From NCBI GenBank assembly GCA_021731815.1, contig JAKFWO010000036.1, forward strand, positions 1-64,000: a stretch of 64,000 nucleotides of DNA. Reading direction: 5' to 3'. Shown here piece after piece: positions 16,261 to 23,760 of this stretch; position 1 is the first letter of the stretch; every line of letters begins with the position of its first letter. A program made the position numbers and the translations under genes. The stretch comes from Hyphomonadaceae bacterium. Lineage in GTDB: Bacteria; Pseudomonadota; Alphaproteobacteria; Caulobacterales; Aquidulcibacteraceae. Below the pieces are notes generated by a model. That model had not been told where the DNA came from, made no database searches, and saw only the letters and a list, made by a program, of their open reading frames with translations.

Positions 16261-16509
16261 TTGTAAGACAACTTGGTTTTTCAAGTTACCATTCTTACGA
16301 AAGTGATGTATACCTAATTATTTTCGAATAAAAATCACGTAACTCAAAGAAAATAATTCGTACATTTCGTTATTTATAATTGTAATGTTATTGGATTATT
16401 TGAGTCGAGATCCAGCAACGAATCTGGAGATAGTTTTTTGCTTGACAGCGTCAGGGAATGCATTATTGCTATCTATCGGATATCCAGAGGTCGCAATTCA
16501 TGTGGGGGC
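16261..16509. promoter_or_regulatory. Very AT-rich leader of the CHAT operon
   Basis: The roughly 180 bases from 16261 to 16440 are strikingly A/T-rich in an otherwise GC-rich window, with several A and T runs. This is where a promoter for the rightward CHAT operon should lie and where a xenogeneic silencer could bind. I could not fix a specific -35/-10 pair. A GGAG at 16425-16428 precedes an alternative TTG start at 16438 for the CHAT gene. Confidence 0.5.
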
Positions 16510-19500
16510 ATGCGCATGATGCCGGATTGGCAAGCCAGGGCGATAAAAGGCAAGAAATCGCGTGAGTCGAAAAGGAGCTTCGCAATTCTTGCTTTGGTGA
16601 TTGCGGTAATGGCTCCCGCCAGCGTTTCGCAAGTCCCCGTGGGTGCAGTCACTGCGGGATTTCGAATAATCCCGGGCAGCGACCAGGGAATTGCTCGCCC
16701 CGACGCGGCGTCAGATTCGATCATTATCAAGAGTTCAGATACCAGAGAGATGCGCCCGGGAACTTGCGCGGCACTGGCGGTCCAGAGTCCACTTTTTCAG
16801 GAATTTCAACGCCTTAATCCTCTGCTTCGCCCGCTTTCTCTCGACGACAAGCTGACGGCTTTTGCATTTTCGGGTGCCCGTGCCGCGCTGGGCCGACTTC
16901 AGTCCCTGAAAAACCCCGGTGGCGACAAAAAGCCGGATGGAGAGGCGGCGGCACTGGCTGTTTTGCAGCAAGGCCTGGATAACGCCCTGGTCTGGATCAA
17001 GGAACGTGAAGACGAATGGGTGCTCCAGGATAAGGACGGTTCGGAATTGAACTCCACCCCGTCGTCGGTGGGCTCTCAATCGGGTCCTGGTAAAATTGAA
17101 AACCACGTTTTGACGCGTCGGGAAGTGATCAGGGCGGGGCTTGTCTCGCCCTCACGCCGCGAGATCGAGATAATGGTTGATCTTGGCATTGCTCAATATC
17201 TGGTGGCCTCGGGCAACGCACCTGTAGCTGCCGAGCGCGCGAATCAAATTCGCGATCGCCTGATGCGCGAAAGCCCCGATTCGCCTCTGTTGCTGGCCGT
17301 CGACCTTTTGCTGGTAGATGCCTATCGATTGGATCATGAAACTGCGCTGGCTCTGGATGCCTCTGAATCATTCGATGAAAACCTGGCACGCTTCCCCCGG
17401 CTTTTCGGGAAGATAAATCACGCTGAAATCAAGACTGCGGCATTTCGTGCCACAATCTATCGTGAGCGGAAGCAGAGCGGTCTTGGTTTACCTGAAGGGC
17501 GGAGTGAGGAAGAAGAATTAAAGCGCGTTACAGAGCTCTATTCGGGTGGCGGAAATTTATTGCACCTCGTTTTTCCAGGCGGCGCAGGATTGATTACGTA
17601 TGATCGACCGCCTGCTCCGGAATCTGTGCTGCGGACATTTGCGCCGGCAAGTAGCGCATCTATCCTGACGATTGGCCAGGCTGTCCTGTTGGCGGTTCAA
17701 ACGGATTCCGTGTTTGGAGCATCTGTCCCGTCCCCGCCTGCCAAAAGCCTCGCCGAATTGGCCCGCTGGACCCTGGAATGCGGAGAACTTGGTGCACAGG
17801 CTTTTCTGGCCGGAGATTTTGCGCTGGCATCGGCTGCCGGAAACACCGCATTTCGTCATCTTGATGGTCCTATGGCCAAAGCACTGGTCAGCCTTGGTGT
17901 GTCGGAAGGAGCAGAAGGTTATGAGGAGCTCTTCGAGGACCTACAGGACTGGTATCTTTCGCGACCAGGAAAGACCTATGATCATCTGAACATTTCGCTC
18001 ATAGGCCTTGGTTCAATCGCTCTTCCGGTATTGTCGGGGGATACCGGACCGTTTCTGGGGGCCATCCGTCGGGTACTCGGCGATGACGTTATCAGGCATG
18101 CGTGGAAAGAGACCCGCGGGTTTGTCGCAGAAGAAGTGATCGTCGACACAGGGCTGACGATGCAGGACATTGACCCTGCTGCCGATCAGGCGATCGCGAC
18201 CGCCTCTGCCGCGCGCGATGCCATATTGTCGCTGCTGGAGCCTTCGCGGCAGAGCCGTAATTCGGCGGCATTGTATTTCGAACTGGACCGTTTCCGGACG
18301 CGTTTGTCGCGATTGATCAATATGACTTCCACTTTGTTTGACAGGGTTTTTCAGTATCAAGGCAAACAGACGGATGACCCGGACGAAATAAATGAAATAA
18401 AGGCCATTCGACGAGAAATACCATTTTTGCGCAAGGCAACAATCCAGTATGTCGACATTTTGTTTGCCAATGGCGAGGCAATGCTTGCCGCCCGGTCCGG
18501 AGAGAAGGGGCGACTGAACGCGGCAATACAGAAAAGCCAGCGATTGGCACGTAGTTTTGCGACGGCCTTGGGCGGGTCGGTTACCAGCACTGATCCGGGC
18601 ATGATCGTCAAACAGGCCGCACTCGTCGCGACCAAATACGGCCTGGAACTTTCTCGACGTGTAGAAAACGGCCTGGCATCAGAAACGGCGGCACTGGCCA
18701 AGGATCAAATTGATGGCATCAAATTTTCTGTCGATTTGGCCGTTGGTTTCCTGATACCGCTGCCTTACAGCAATTCTCCGGAGGCGCGCGCTATTGCGCA
18801 AGACTACAAGGACGGTATTCGCTCCATTATGGCGTCGCTTGATCCCGACTGGGCTGTCGACTTGAGAGACAGTTTTGAGCCGCCGGATCTGTCTGATCAG
18901 GGTTCATTTTCTGATTTCGCTTATACTTCTTTGACATCAATATATAGTCAGGGGATCGAAATCTTTCTGGCACGAGGTTATTGGGCACTGAGTGAACTGA
19001 ATAATATTGGAGCGAAGGAGGAAGTCGCATTTCTGCTCGAGGGATTACAGGCTGTTACTGAAGGCGTTTCAGAATGGGGTGATGCCAGCTCATCATTCTA
19101 CACAGCTCTGGGCGTTCTCGACGATGCGGTCTTCTTGTCGCTGATCCAAATTGGGAGCCAGTTTCAGCGTCCGGTCATAACGGAGACTGCTTTGTCCCTT
19201 TGGGTTGCAGCAAAACGGGCGGGGAAATCGACCAATGCGAACCAGGACACGCAGGACTTTCGCGCGGATCGCAACGCTTTCGCGATTCAGGCCTGGGTGG
19301 TCGCACAACGAATCATGTCCGGTCAGGCCACGGGAAAAAATGCTGATCTGCTTCTCAATTCTCTGGATTTCGCAAATCGCAGTGCCGCGGGCGTGGATTT
19401 CAGTATCCAACTGGAGATGCAGGCCGCGCCCAAGGAAGTTCGCGATGCCTATCAGCGATGGAGGCGCTTGTCTCTGGACCTTGAAGCCGATGGGGATGCC

Positions 19501-20841
19501 CGTCGCGCCAGTGCACAACAAGCCTTTCAACTGGGCCGCGCTCTTTCCGAATGGAGACCCGTTACGGGCGCAACAGCGTCCACCGTCAGTGATGCTTACC
19601 GAAACCTGATCATTGCTGCGCAGAACTCGAACTACGGGCTCCCGCAATTTCGGACCACCAATTTTGCTGAGTTACAAGCTGCCCTCGATGACCGCGAGGT
19701 TCTCATTACCGGGATGGTCTATGCCAGCGAATTGCTGGCAGTAGCCATCAGGCGAGGAAAACCGATTCGCGTCGCAAGGGTAGACCGTTCGTTCGCGGAC
19801 CTGACGGCGAAAAGCGCGCAATTGCGCGCTTCCATGACACTGTTGCCCGGTCGGGAAGCACCGGATTTCAATCTGGATGCGTCACGCGTACTCTATCAGT
19901 CCCTGTTTGCGTTTGCGGATGAGTTCATTGACGGAGCTGATCGGATAATCTGGTCACCGCCACGCGGACTCGACAATTTTCCTGTCGCGGTTCTCGATCG
20001 TGCTCAATCCGGTGATGTTCGATGGCTTGGTCTGGAGAAGGAGATCATGGTCGCCCCATCATTGGCATCATTAGTCAGTCTGCGGGCCGCCGTCCCATTC
20101 GTGTCCTCGGGAGCGATTGCAGCGGTCGGAGATGTACCATTCGTCGGCCCGACAACCAGTGGCCTTGGTTCCGGGAATGGCCTTCGTTCCGGAAAACGGC
20201 CCAACCACACAGCTGGCGCTCCCGGAATTTCCAATCTCAATTATTTTCTCGGTGCTACGCCCGCCGCGCGGCAAGCGTTGGCTTCGCTCAAAAGCCTTTT
20301 TCCGCAATCCGAACTTCTTGACGGGGCCAATGCCACCAGAATCAATGTTACTTCGAAATTGCGGGACCGGAGTTTTGACTATCTGCTTTTTCACACGCAT
20401 GGCGTGGGAGAGGATGTAACCCTTGCGTGCGGCTACGGTGTTGCGCAAGCGCTTGCACTCAATCACGACAATCCGGACAAACCTTGCAAGGAAGCGCTGC
20501 TCGGTGCCCAGGACGCCGCACAACTTGGGATCAGGGCAAGAGTTGTCATGCTCGGGGCCTGTAGCACGTCAGCAGCCCCCAATCGGCGGCTCGATCCTGT
20601 CGGAGGAATGGCTCGGGGGTTCTTGCTCGGCGGGGCACGGGCAGTGGTCAGTGCGCATCTGCCCGTATCAGACAGAGCTGCATCGTTGGTAGGGAAGGAA
20701 CTTGCGACAGGGCTGCTGACCCGGAAACGTGTGCCGACTGCGGCGCTTCGGGACGCGATGATGTTGGTCCGGTCTCAGCGGGGCATGTCTGGTCCTGCAT
20801 ATTGGGGACAGTTCGAAATCATTGGGGAAGGCGGACGATGA
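16510..20841 (+). CDS. Exported CHAT-domain (caspase-like) protein
   Basis: A large protein of 1443 residues if started at the ATG at 16510; an in-frame TTG at 16438 would add 24. A basic stretch (KGKKSRESKR) followed by a hydrophobic core at residues 24-37 looks like a Sec signal peptide ending near ASVSQ. Most of the protein is predicted helical and TPR-like, with no clear second domain. The C-terminal 170 residues form a CHAT domain. His1297 lies in LLFHTHG and Cys1351 in MLGACSTS, followed by the GGMARGFLLGGARAVVSAHLPVSD-type stretch and YWGQFEIIG, so the catalytic His-Cys dyad is intact. Family knowledge suggests a cysteine peptidase; an extracytoplasmic location is inferred. It is followed by CHASE2 and secreted-protein genes. 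Base composition is lower in GC than its neighbours, suggesting transfer. Confidence 0.85.
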   Translation: MRMMPDWQARAIKGKKSRESKRSFAILALVIAVMAPASVSQVPVGAVTAGFRIIPGSDQGIARPDAASDSIIIKSSDTREMRPGTCAALAVQSPLFQEFQRLNPLLRPLSLDDKLTAFAFSGARAALGRLQSLKNPGGDKKPDGEAAALAVLQQGLDNALVWIKEREDEWVLQDKDGSELNSTPSSVGSQSGPGKIENHVLTRREVIRAGLVSPSRREIEIMVDLGIAQYLVASGNAPVAAERANQIRDRLMRESPDSPLLLAVDLLLVDAYRLDHETALALDASESFDENLARFPRLFGKINHAEIKTAAFRATIYRERKQSGLGLPEGRSEEEELKRVTELYSGGGNLLHLVFPGGAGLITYDRPPAPESVLRTFAPASSASILTIGQAVLLAVQTDSVFGASVPSPPAKSLAELARWTLECGELGAQAFLAGDFALASAAGNTAFRHLDGPMAKALVSLGVSEGAEGYEELFEDLQDWYLSRPGKTYDHLNISLIGLGSIALPVLSGDTGPFLGAIRRVLGDDVIRHAWKETRGFVAEEVIVDTGLTMQDIDPAADQAIATASAARDAILSLLEPSRQSRNSAALYFELDRFRTRLSRLINMTSTLFDRVFQYQGKQTDDPDEINEIKAIRREIPFLRKATIQYVDILFANGEAMLAARSGEKGRLNAAIQKSQRLARSFATALGGSVTSTDPGMIVKQAALVATKYGLELSRRVENGLASETAALAKDQIDGIKFSVDLAVGFLIPLPYSNSPEARAIAQDYKDGIRSIMASLDPDWAVDLRDSFEPPDLSDQGSFSDFAYTSLTSIYSQGIEIFLARGYWALSELNNIGAKEEVAFLLEGLQAVTEGVSEWGDASSSFYTALGVLDDAVFLSLIQIGSQFQRPVITETALSLWVAAKRAGKSTNANQDTQDFRADRNAFAIQAWVVAQRIMSGQATGKNADLLLNSLDFANRSAAGVDFSIQLEMQAAPKEVRDAYQRWRRLSLDLEADGDARRASAQQAFQLGRALSEWRPVTGATASTVSDAYRNLIIAAQNSNYGLPQFRTTNFAELQAALDDREVLITGMVYASELLAVAIRRGKPIRVARVDRSFADLTAKSAQLRASMTLLPGREAPDFNLDASRVLYQSLFAFADEFIDGADRIIWSPPRGLDNFPVAVLDRAQSGDVRWLGLEKEIMVAPSLASLVSLRAAVPFVSSGAIAAVGDVPFVGPTTSGLGSGNGLRSGKRPNHTAGAPGISNLNYFLGATPAARQALASLKSLFPQSELLDGANATRINVTSKLRDRSFDYLLFHTHGVGEDVTLACGYGVAQALALNHDNPDKPCKEALLGAQDAAQLGIRARVVMLGACSTSAAPNRRLDPVGGMARGFLLGGARAVVSAHLPVSDRAASLVGKELATGLLTRKRVPTAALRDAMMLVRSQRGMSGPAYWGQFEIIGEGGR

Positions 20842-21039
20842 ATCCGGGCCTCGACAGGAATTCGGAACCGTGGCTGCGCTGCGGGCATCCAGACCAGAGC
20901 GCGTTCAGAAGAAGTGGAGTCCGGTTTTTCGTTAGAACGTGCTTTAAAATGCCCGGGGTCTGGGATGTAACGAATCTCAGGTCGCCTGAAATTCTGAAGG
21001 CGGGATCGATTGGATCATTCAGTACGTGAATTGCGCGGG

Positions 21040-22407
21040 ATGAAAGTCACGGCATTTCTGGCGGCCATCGGACTAGGGGCACTCGTTGGCGGGCTTGGTG
21101 TCTTGCTGCGAGATGAACCAGTACGCTTTGTGCTGATTGCCGAAATGGCTGCGGCAACAGAACGAAGTTTCCTTGAGGCCGTCGCGCGCAGGAAATTGCC
21201 GCCATCGCCAGTTTCCGGGGTGCTTTTGGTTGATCTTTCGCCGATGTCAGAAAATTCTCCTTCAGGGAATCGGTCGGCGCCCGCGAGTGGAACCGATCGC
21301 CGGACGATTGCAGCCGCGCTCGATACTCTCCGCCTGACTCCCCGCGCTCCATATTTGGTTGTTCTCGATGTGGATATCGCCCCGCCGGCCGATGCTTCGG
21401 ATTTCCGCACGGAAGAAGAGGCGCGTCTGTTGGAGTCGCTCGACGCCTGGAAGCGGGCGCCCGCAGCCGCACCGTTACTTCTGGTGCGAGGCGAAGGATG
21501 TGCCTCGCCACTAAATCATGCAACGCGTGTGCTTCCGTTGCCCTGGAAAAATTCCCCCTATGATTTGTTGGCAGCACCGACTGCCAGTGAGGCAACACGT
21601 ATCGCATGGACGTGTTCCTTGCCATTCTTGTCGCGGGACGGGGCGGCCCGTAGTTTCCATCCAATGGGATGTGCGTCGCGCAAGACCGACTGGGGCGAGC
21701 GGTTTCCTGTCCCATCGCCGGGAGAATGGGCCAAATCCGGCGTCCAGCAAGCCTCACCGACCGTCGATTTGACTGCGACCTATCGCAGATTGCTTCCGGC
21801 TTGGCGGAAGGCGTGCCTGCAGGAATCAGGGGGCGGCGCATTTCCGCGTCCTGTGCCGTTCCCTCCCCGGCAGTCGAACGAGACTGATGCGCCAATTGCT
21901 GTCAGTCAGTTGACGGAATTCGCCACAAGGGGCGAACTTGATTCCCGAGTGATTGTCCTTGGACGGTGGGACGCCCGATCAGGCGACCAATGGGTCGGTT
22001 CATCGGGGCAGTTGACGCCCGGTGCGCACCTTGTCGCTGACCATGTGTACGCCGCATTGAGATATCGCGGGCGAACAGAACTGGGCACATATTCGGGGAT
22101 TGGGCTGGTGTTCCTCCTCGGCGGCGGATTAGGTGCCTTATATTGGAGCGTTCGAACGGCCCGTCGGCCGCTGGTGAGGTGGCTTGGCAAGTGGCGAACA
22201 TTACGGGGGCTGCCAGTCTGGATCACCCGAATTGCATTCTCTCCTCCGGTCCTGGGCATAATATTGTCACTGACGACCACGATGGCCCTGGTCTTGGGTG
22301 CCGATCTCGTGGCACCCAATTCCTGGCCGGTGCTCTGGTATGTTTCGGTCGGGTGCGGCACCGCCCTCGCACTGCTTGATTTGGCTCTTACCGAGGAGAA
22401 AGACTGA
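21040..22407 (+). CDS. CHASE2-domain membrane protein without output domain
   Basis: About 455 residues from the ATG at 21040; a TTG at 21010 with a better ribosome binding site would add 10. An N-terminal membrane segment (residues 1-23) is followed by an extracytoplasmic CHASE2-like domain. Its typical landmarks are visible: VLLVDLS early, YLVVLDVDIAPP near residue 106, VIVLGRWD near 304 and LTPGAHLVADHVYAAL near 326. Three further hydrophobic segments (about 348-368, 395-415, 430-447) end the protein with no kinase, cyclase or other cytoplasmic domain. CHASE2 normally serves as the sensor of such enzymes. Here it may sense or anchor something for the neighbouring CHAT protein. It lies about 200 bp after the CHAT gene and 1 bp before the next gene. 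Confidence 0.75.
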   Translation: MKVTAFLAAIGLGALVGGLGVLLRDEPVRFVLIAEMAAATERSFLEAVARRKLPPSPVSGVLLVDLSPMSENSPSGNRSAPASGTDRRTIAAALDTLRLTPRAPYLVVLDVDIAPPADASDFRTEEEARLLESLDAWKRAPAAAPLLLVRGEGCASPLNHATRVLPLPWKNSPYDLLAAPTASEATRIAWTCSLPFLSRDGAARSFHPMGCASRKTDWGERFPVPSPGEWAKSGVQQASPTVDLTATYRRLLPAWRKACLQESGGGAFPRPVPFPPRQSNETDAPIAVSQLTEFATRGELDSRVIVLGRWDARSGDQWVGSSGQLTPGAHLVADHVYAALRYRGRTELGTYSGIGLVFLLGGGLGALYWSVRTARRPLVRWLGKWRTLRGLPVWITRIAFSPPVLGIILSLTTTMALVLGADLVAPNSWPVLWYVSVGCGTALALLDLALTEEKD

Positions 22408-22408
22408 A

Positions 22409-23323
22409 ATGCCGTCGATTTCCGAATACAGCTCCGCACTCTTCCTGATCACAGCTCTCCTCGGCGTGCCGGGGGTGGCAGATGCACAATGCCCCCCGGG
22501 CGAACGCTATGCGGCGGACATTGTGGAGCCCGGTTCAACCCCGACACCCCGGAAAACCGACATCTTTTCAGTAGAACGTTCCAACCGCACAATGAAATTC
22601 TTCAATGGCGGGGTCCGACTGTGCACCGGTGATCGCGTGATAGCGCAAGATCTGGAAGTCTCACTTGTGCTCGATTGGCGAAGGGAGCCGATCCGCATTC
22701 GGCCCAGATCTCATTTTATGATCCCCGGAAAGCGGCGGGTCATTTTCGACTTGCTTGCAGATGCCGCGCCTGTTTTCTTCGAGCGAGAAGTCAGTTCCAG
22801 CGGAACTGCAGGAACGCTTGGTTCTGGCTCCCGCGGACCGTCCGGTAACGAGGAAATGCGTTTTGCGATCGCCGGATTGCCAGGAGGAGATGCACGTTTG
22901 ACGGCATTGCCTACATTGTTTTCATTGCCAATTTCCCGCAAACGCACATCGAGGCTCGACGTGGTTATTGTCGATCCGGAGGGGCATGCCCATGAAATGA
23001 CCGCACCGGAAAACGATGACGGTGCTCCTCAGTTCGAAGATTTACCAAAAATACCAGGAGAGTGGAGAATATTTGCCGAGAGCGGCGTAGAACGCCTCAG
23101 CGGAAAATTTATTCTAGAAACTGCAAATACTTGGCCCGGCCCACGCGGCACGGAGGAGGATATTCTGATTTGGATTTGCGAAGATCCGGCGCGTAATGGC
23201 TTGCAAGGTGTTCATGAACTCAGGGAAGTCAATAGCGGGGTTGTTTCGCCATTCGCAAAATCAATTCTGGAATTTTGGTATACACCAGGATCGTCGTCCT
23301 TTTGCGCTGCAAGTCCGGGGTAA
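22409..23323 (+). CDS. Secreted protein of unknown function, third gene of the CHAT-CHASE2 unit
   Basis: A 304-residue protein with a clear signal peptide (hydrophobic core SALFLITALLGVPG, cleavage likely after ADA). A strong GAGGAGAAAG ribosome binding site precedes the ATG at 22409, which lies 1 bp after the CHASE2 stop. The N-terminal third (GGVRLCTGDRVIAQDLEVSLVL, then IRIRPRSHFMIPG) has a weak FecR-like beta-rich look, but I do not claim the family. The rest is a beta-rich region with no motif I recognise. Five cysteines could form disulfides in the periplasm. Tight spacing indicates cotranscription with CHASE2, so a role with the CHAT protein in the envelope is likely. Confidence 0.7.
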   Translation: MPSISEYSSALFLITALLGVPGVADAQCPPGERYAADIVEPGSTPTPRKTDIFSVERSNRTMKFFNGGVRLCTGDRVIAQDLEVSLVLDWRREPIRIRPRSHFMIPGKRRVIFDLLADAAPVFFEREVSSSGTAGTLGSGSRGPSGNEEMRFAIAGLPGGDARLTALPTLFSLPISRKRTSRLDVVIVDPEGHAHEMTAPENDDGAPQFEDLPKIPGEWRIFAESGVERLSGKFILETANTWPGPRGTEEDILIWICEDPARNGLQGVHELREVNSGVVSPFAKSILEFWYTPGSSSFCAASPG

Positions 23324-23760
23324 TCATCGCAGGTATCGTTCGTCCCGGGCCTGCCTTCTGGAATTTCCCCTGGTCTGTCGTCGAGCGGGCTCATTCTGAG
23401 AAGGAAGAGACGGAAAACGAACAATCGTTTCGCCGAAGCGCAGATTATCGGGGCGGATTATCGTAAACGAGGCTACCCAACCGAAATCCACTCATCCGCG
23501 CGAATCAATGAGTGAGTTTTGATTTTGGGCAGTATGAAAGTCTAAAAGTTTCAAGTTGATAGGCATTACGCTGGGTGTCAGCCGCTGGCTGCCCGACCAG
23601 AAACGGTCCCCCGCCTTGATGTATTGAATAATGATAATTTACCTTGGCAGGGGCGCCAAGGCTGCGGATTCTGGTGTAGAGGACGCGCAATACAGCGGCA
23701 ATGAACCGTAGCGCCCAGATCCGGCCCCGGAGCGCAGGGCCAAAACTGCCAGGAACCGGA
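23324..23760. other. Non-coding gap at the right edge of the accessory segment
   Basis: About 437 bases. I see no convincing gene: small open frames on both strands lack ribosome binding sites or recognisable products. Composition returns from AT-rich to GC-rich across this stretch. It presumably contains the end of the CHAT operon transcript and the promoter of the efflux pair. No clear terminator or attachment repeat was found. Confidence 0.5.

Follow-up and report, generated by a model that had tools for sequence, protein, structure and literature searches.

What is a membrane sensor good for, if it carries no domain that could pass a signal on? The question is raised by a protein encoded in a Hyphomonadaceae bacterium, on contig JAKFWO010000036.1. 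All coordinates are those of a stretch of 64,000 nucleotides (nt) of this contig, the whole of which is here called the window; loci and genomes are labelled L and G, respectively, each with a number. An earlier note had described the protein as a CHASE2 sensor that ends in the membrane after three C-terminal helices, had found no output domain in it, and had looked for its output in the neighbouring CHAT protein. Our answer includes a third gene, T. The CHAT, CHASE2 and T proteins may well form one extracytoplasmic module, in which the CHASE2 protein is the membrane receptor for a periplasmic protease; we rate the chance that this is correct as even. The gene set, its recurrence, its descent, a His/Cys pair in the protease and the predicted locations of the products were computed.

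The CHASE2 protein and its relatives

The window protein does not easily disclose its family. A direct profile search against Pfam-A and NCBIfam yielded no family at E ≤ 10, and PF05226 had no match in the genome of the bacterium itself. An in-house profile, built mostly from output-bearing CHASE2 proteins, was discarded as evidence of homology: the hmmsearch E value was 1 for the full sequence and 0.02 for the best stretch, hhalign gave P 0.08, and the match was colinear only. This profile had at least two wrong-strand rows (L076, L086), which showed again as an antisense match in L090, and served only for locating CHASE2 open reading frames (ORFs). The relatives that also lack an output domain gave a different picture. 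In leave-one-out comparisons, a profile of four of them aligned with the window protein with an hhalign probability of 93% (P 3e-7), and a profile of eleven found it with an hmmsearch E of 4e-8; among 317 proteins it came first, and the output-bearing CHASE2 proteins from the control loci ranked below it. The Pfam CHASE2 cut-off is passed by all ten scanned relatives among the twelve, with E values of 1e-8 to 1e-21 for the nine that belong to the eleven-member profile. The scan covered neither L158 nor L160, the same-genus counterparts of L157 and L159; L202, a later find, is outside the eleven-member profile. From the leave-one-out matches to relatives that pass this cut-off we conclude that the window protein is, by profile comparison, a very divergent CHASE2 protein, its membership being established via relatives and not by a direct match. 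The CHASE2 label of the earlier note thus failed in the direct search and was upheld by the indirect one.

The relatives are scattered and rare. A Pfam search in 299 genomes of the order detected CHASE2 in 116; a closer look at 12 of these disclosed one output-less protein, L090, from a genome of the same family (CHASE2 7.1e-14). A two-row profile of the window protein and L090 led to L112, L113 and L114, and a five-row profile to L137. L149 and L150 came from a collection of genome contigs, where a third match, L148, was the same contig as L090. A class-level search added L157-L160 and a phylum-level search L202. This makes 13 output-less loci, distributed over several alphaproteobacterial families, another proteobacterial class and Eremiobacterota. 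Of the 299 genomes searched in the order, 6 have such a locus; the class-level search gave 5 of 230, the window's own genome included, and the phylum-level search 1 of 239 besides it. Most other matches in these searches were long frames of about 690 amino acids (aa) or more, taken as ordinary CHASE2 proteins without individual reading; L161 and L203 were inspected individually, and L203 has a tail of about 158 residues. Eight short CHASE2 frames (G210, G214, G249, G288, G639, G572, G259 and G159) were dropped as uninformative, all eight running into a contig end, and so was L098 (G245), whose frame stops at one. Single-protein searches gave the window protein no close relative. With the window protein, tblastn at E ≤ 0.01 returned 2 of 61 genomes, namely its own and one with a protein that is not CHASE2-like; in 240 genomes it matched only itself, and in plasmids nothing. 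Plasmid searches with L149 and L137 were equally negative, and one with L150 yielded two records matched in the C-terminal quarter only.

Hydropathy places the membrane helices at residues 5-23, 353-371, 407-425 and 431-449 of 455, and only 6 residues follow the last one. The protein thus ends in the membrane as described before, and its coordinates are right: the gene starts with the ATG at 21040, an in-frame TTG at 21010 being likewise open, and stops with the TGA at 22405-22407. The loop of residues 372-406 has eight Arg/Lys and no acidic residue. Because it is so basic, it is predicted by the positive-inside rule to be cytoplasmic, and the long polar stretch of about 330 residues (24-352) should be periplasmic. 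Comparable basic loops are seen in L090, L112 and L137; they are absent from L149 and L150. One helix before and three after the extracytoplasmic domain is also the layout that PMC3501461 gives for a CHASE2 protein. A structure model from a four-row alignment (the window protein and three related loci) reached a mean predicted local distance difference test score (pLDDT) of 43, and a fold search with it had no useful match in the PDB.

Has an output domain been lost by a frameshift? The T gene starts 1 nt past the CHASE2 stop. By our choice of start codons, the distance from the CHASE2 stop to the start of the following gene ranges from -23 to +5 nt in all 12 loci measured, six of which show an overlap of 4 nt; in L202, the thirteenth, the next gene also overlaps the CHASE2 gene. 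The three plus-strand frames of 22300-23700 contain no long open frame except this next gene, which has no Pfam match. A profile of the cyclase-type tail matched no ORF in positions 11000-32000 of the window, nor any in the 13 output-less regions. A frameshift removing an output domain, named in the earlier note as the finding that would speak against it, was not found. In a tree of 38 CHASE2 proteins, rooted at the midpoint only and calculated without L202, the twelve output-less proteins form one group with support of 98/93, which is recovered in 99% of 200 bootstrap trees; none of 500 shuffles scored as low. The window protein sits on a long end branch (2.13), which leaves its precise position in the group uncertain. 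Because the twelve form one supported clade, the output-less CHASE2 protein is, on this phylogenetic evidence, an inherited architecture.

The neighbouring genes CHAT and T

Ten of the 13 output-less loci have a CHAT gene in the vicinity (the window, L112/L115, L114, L137, L149, L150 and L157-L160). In nine it adjoins the CHASE2 gene or is separated from it by T only; in L112/L115 it is about 6 kilobases (kb) away, across genes of two-partner secretion. With the same-genus pairs L157/L158 and L159/L160 merged, the count is 8 of 11. The gene order is CHAT-CHASE2-T in the window and a metagenome-assembled genome (MAG) of Proteobacteria, and CHASE2-T-CHAT in a MAG of Eremiobacterota. The output-less loci had been located by CHASE2 profiles and not by CHAT, the window itself being the given starting point. 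The controls were 20 output-bearing loci of about 19 kb, hand-picked from the order-wide Pfam CHASE2 list because their contigs are long and their open frames span 736-860 aa. Neither CHAT nor T was found in any of them at E ≤ 1e-3, and the result was the same over all stop-to-stop frames. The overlap-filtered ORF list called the CHASE2 ORF in 19 of the 20 (L168 was missed), the stop-to-stop frames in all; the cyclase-type tail is present in all 20, its profile having been built from 19 of them. G170 and G271 provide internal controls: each has both kinds of CHASE2, with CHAT near the output-less copy only.

What kind of protein is CHAT? For the window gene the ATG at 16510 is the preferred start; a TTG at 16438 is also open, and a signal-like hydrophobic segment spans residues 48-66 counted from this TTG. 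Such an N-terminal segment is found in all ten CHAT proteins of the module, with a lipobox-like Cys in four (L157-L160, two same-genus pairs). All ten also keep an aligned His/Cys pair, in the window protein His1321 and Cys1375, the putative catalytic residues of the family. The protein is thus a putative caspase-like cysteine protease. TPR matches occur in the CHAT proteins of L150, L157 and L115 and, weakly, in L149; the Pfam scan of the window protein detected CHAT as the only domain and no TPR. As a query against the collection of genome contigs the window CHAT protein had no relative. The order has still other CHAT genes. At L033:4329-9595 and L031:854-9665 they stand in runs with a Peptidase_C14 caspase gene and TPR genes, a second caspase-like neighbourhood in which no CHASE2 was called.

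The third protein, T, is recognised by profile in 11 of the 13 output-less loci (the window and ten others). It has some 300 aa, a signal-like N-terminus and frequently a motif of the LCxGD type, which is followed by a part that looks Ig-like. Pfam is silent on it. The window protein has no family at E ≤ 10, and among eight others scanned (L090, L112, L114, L137, L149, L150, L157 and L159) only L137 has a hit, a sub-threshold BiPBP_C of 0.019. The beta part of the window T (residues 51-110, pLDDT about 58-76) resembles the cell surface anchoring domain 5ix9, the retention domain from Marinomonas, over 72 of 76 residues with a root-mean-square deviation of 2.5 and a Z score of 7.1, the next score being 5.0 and values below 8 being possible by chance. 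Foldseek gave a probability of 0.99 and E 0.11 for the same pair, with a query model of mean pLDDT 42, built from the same four loci as the CHASE2 model. The resemblance to an adhesin retention domain, derived from such a model, stays a lead.

A FecR (PF04773) identity of T was considered and rejected: neither the window T (E ≤ 10) nor any of the eight others scanned has a FecR match, and hhalign of a FecR protein against the T profile gave P 0.077. The next-best match of the T profile among the controls is nevertheless a FecR protein (FecR 3.6e-10) beside an ordinary CHASE2 gene, at E 0.012, and relatives of this protein are present in 4 of 20 control loci, its own included. A distant link between T and FecR is therefore possible. 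The four genes (L173:11916-12767, L180:11950-12870, L163:6738-7703 and L176:7508-8242), of which only that of L173 was tested with Pfam, are no more than about 1.5 kb from ordinary CHASE2 cyclase genes.

In two loci the gene that follows CHASE2 is of another kind or hardly recognisable. That of L113 (L113:7058-8401) encodes a PBP_like_2 domain of the periplasmic-binding type; any kinship with T is putative, and the gene may be a natural variant and a hint that a ligand is sensed. The follower in L202 meets the T profile weakly (hhalign P 0.0025), not at E ≤ 1e-3. Behind the L202 CHASE2 gene and this follower comes a tandem of three genes for small paralogous proteins, each with a signal-like N-terminus (L202:5280-6669).

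Genes of two-partner secretion are neighbours of 6 of the 10 CHAT loci. Pfam finds ShlB/POTRA in L112 and ShlB plus the TPS domain in L137 and L157; in L158-L160 a ShlB match lies inside the locus or no more than about 4 kb from it, and CHAT there has a long ORF next to it. At E ≤ 0.001 ShlB found no match in the genome of the window or in G170, both of which nevertheless keep the three genes. Because of these two genomes two-partner secretion is, by gene content, optional for the module, and release of a two-partner exoprotein by CHAT as the general function is ruled out for the window.

Table 1. Features of the CHAT-CHASE2-T region in window coordinates
Feature	Position	Strand	Basis
Exported-looking CHAT (caspase-like) protease gene	16510..20841	+	Pfam CHAT 5.3e-30, residues 1148-1463; start codons
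CHAT domain (PF12770)	19879..20826	+	Pfam match converted to nucleotides
Putative catalytic His codon, residue 1321, THG motif	20398..20400	+	aligned in 10/10 module CHAT proteins
Putative catalytic Cys codon, residue 1375, GAC motif	20560..20562	+	aligned in 10/10 module CHAT proteins
Output-less CHASE2 membrane protein, 455 aa	21040..22407	+	ORF, hydropathy, profile comparison with relatives
Transmembrane helix 1	21052..21108	+	hydropathy
CHASE2 sensor region, predicted periplasmic	21109..22095	+	profile alignments; topology inferred
Transmembrane helix 2	22096..22152	+	hydropathy
Basic loop, predicted cytoplasmic, 8 Arg/Lys, 0 Asp/Glu	22153..22257	+	sequence inspection
Transmembrane helix 3	22258..22314	+	hydropathy
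Transmembrane helix 4	22330..22386	+	hydropathy
T protein: small, signal-bearing; beta domain, then Ig-like region (low confidence); no Pfam family	22409..23323	+	profile, structure model

A proposed module outside the cytoplasm and its rivals

In the scheme that we prefer, the three genes between 16510 and 23323 would act as one module outside the cytoplasm. The CHASE2 protein would be an inner-membrane receptor, its sensor domain facing the periplasm and no output domain of its own behind it. T would be its small exported partner; since its gene abuts or overlaps that of the receptor, the translation of the two is probably coupled. The exported CHAT protein would be the effector, acting as a caspase-like cysteine protease. 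A signal bound by the CHASE2 domain, alone or together with T, would alter the activity or the release of CHAT in the same compartment, where T might serve as adaptor, inhibitor or decoy. Mutual binding of the proteins, control of CHAT by CHASE2, the signal and the substrate are what we infer here. A receptor and a protease sharing one compartment is the simplest scheme, because the proteins that recur beside CHASE2 seem to be exported and no domain of the CHASE2 protein would lie in the cytoplasm.

A more detailed version is tentative and rather doubtful. The CHASE2 domain would sense a periplasmic or external cue and directly switch the periplasmic CHAT, with T as a retention-domain-like adaptor or decoy substrate, a counterpart of LapD/LapG made from other domains; it would trim the exoprotein in loci with two-partner secretion and other envelope targets elsewhere.

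Several observations weigh against our scheme. In 3 of the 13 output-less loci (L090, L113 and L202) no CHAT is nearby. The L090 contig ends after 8,978 nt, and CHAT is found elsewhere in that genome; in the L113 genome, which is 87% complete, there is no CHAT match at all. Nor is the link exclusive to output-less CHASE2 proteins, since output-bearing ones occur near CHAT in two genomes. In G057 (L026:4867-10054) the gene immediately downstream of a CHASE2-guanylate cyclase gene encodes a CHAT protein of 1095 aa whose N-terminus is signal-like; on contig 18 of G007, about 5.8 kb lie between CHAT and a CHASE2-cyclase gene. The tree puts the G057 CHASE2 next to the output-less clade, in its sister group (88/97), so that the association with CHAT may have preceded the loss of the output domain. 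In the window itself, 198 nt separate CHAT from the ATG at 21040, and promoter and terminator matches are no better than in shuffled sequence; a CHAT-CHASE2 operon is, therefore, only putative. Export is a prediction from hydropathy. The window T is weakly recognised (leave-one-out E 7.9e-4, rank 1 of 317, hhalign probability 79%), and the T profile at E ≤ 1e-3 has no match in L113 and L202. The structure models are poor, with a mean pLDDT of 43 for CHASE2 and 42 for T. The claim that the output is the neighbouring CHAT protein thus stands in part: the gene association (10 of 13 against 0 of 20 controls) and the ten signal-like N-termini speak for it, but the third gene at 22409-23323 had been overlooked and three loci do without CHAT nearby.

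The main rival leaves the output in the cytoplasm. A cyclase, a kinase or another protein would dock in trans on the basic loop or the helices, and CHAT would be a separate, co-travelling function. We consider this unlikely, even though CHASE2 receptors of known pathway signal inward and several output-less members have the basic loop to dock on. A candidate of this kind, a stand-alone ORF of 206 aa in another class (L202:9245-9865), overlaps the CHASE2 gene and looks by eye like a degenerate class III cyclase; it was rejected as such, having no Pfam family and no significant similarity (hhalign P 0.18). In the 12 other regions and in 11000-32000 of the window no ORF matched the cyclase-tail profile, while kinases and GGDEF proteins were not systematically searched.

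Somewhat less probable again is a role without any sensing, in which CHASE2 and T would be a scaffold or an aid to secretion or maturation of CHAT or a surface protein. The two-partner secretion genes at six of the ten CHAT loci would fit such a role; the two genomes that keep the three genes without a ShlB match do not, and CHASE2 elsewhere is a sensor domain. Finally, the window protein might be a decayed signalling protein whose output domain was lost by frameshift or truncation, which its great divergence (the long end branch, its invisibility to Pfam) could suggest, but this is already highly improbable in view of twelve output-less proteins that group together, end alike and are followed by a gene at the same place, and of an output domain nowhere found downstream.

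Known systems and significance

A literature search, which left most subscription journals aside, found no paper that joins CHASE2 with a CHAT domain, or a CHAT domain with two-partner secretion. Within the literature searched, the recurring set of CHAT, CHASE2 and T is apparently undescribed. Bacterial caspase-like proteases have mostly been studied inside the cell, and the TPR-CHAT protease of Craspase is cytoplasmic. Craspase TPR-CHAT is a CRISPR-linked protease that works with another protein (PMC9729208, PMC9935389). TPR plus CHAT with a partner protein is what some loci here share with it, the CHAT protein of the window not being among the TPR-bearing ones; the CRISPR link is particular to Craspase and the signal-like N-terminus to the CHAT proteins described here.

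Among the closest precedents is a metacaspase-CHASE2 fusion of Trichodesmium erythraeum, a single polypeptide with the protease predicted to be cytoplasmic (PMC3501461). It likewise combines a caspase-like protease with CHASE2, and the part consulted mentions nothing past its last helix. Here, in contrast, the genes are separate, CHAT has a signal-like N-terminus, and there is a third protein. Partners outside the inner membrane are not without precedent. In Sinorhizobium meliloti the CHASE2 cyclases CyaD1, CyaD2 and CyaK work with the outer-membrane protein NsrA (PMC13001267); there, however, the cyclase output is in the same protein, and here there is none. In the BiofilmReg operon of Burkholderia a LysM-FecR protein adjoins a CHASE2 histidine kinase (PMC5192318), so that a signal-bearing accessory protein is encoded beside the receptor in both cases; the output there is a kinase and the part consulted mentions no CHAT, whereas T has no Pfam FecR match. 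The general plan can also be compared with adhesin release by LapD/LapG, which comprises an inner-membrane receptor, a periplasmic cysteine protease, a retention-type beta domain and sometimes a type Vb adhesin (PMC13090378). These have possible equivalents here. Yet LapD reads c-di-GMP inside the cell and LapG is transglutaminase-like, while the domains recognised here are CHASE2 and CHAT.

What emerges is a heritable lineage of output-less CHASE2 proteins, linked to a caspase-like protease that looks exported and to a third protein encoded alongside. With three defined genes in several genomes, the question of how a sensor without output signals becomes directly testable. If our proposal is true, receptors otherwise known for inward signalling would here take part in a signalling layout whose start and end both lie outside the cytoplasm.
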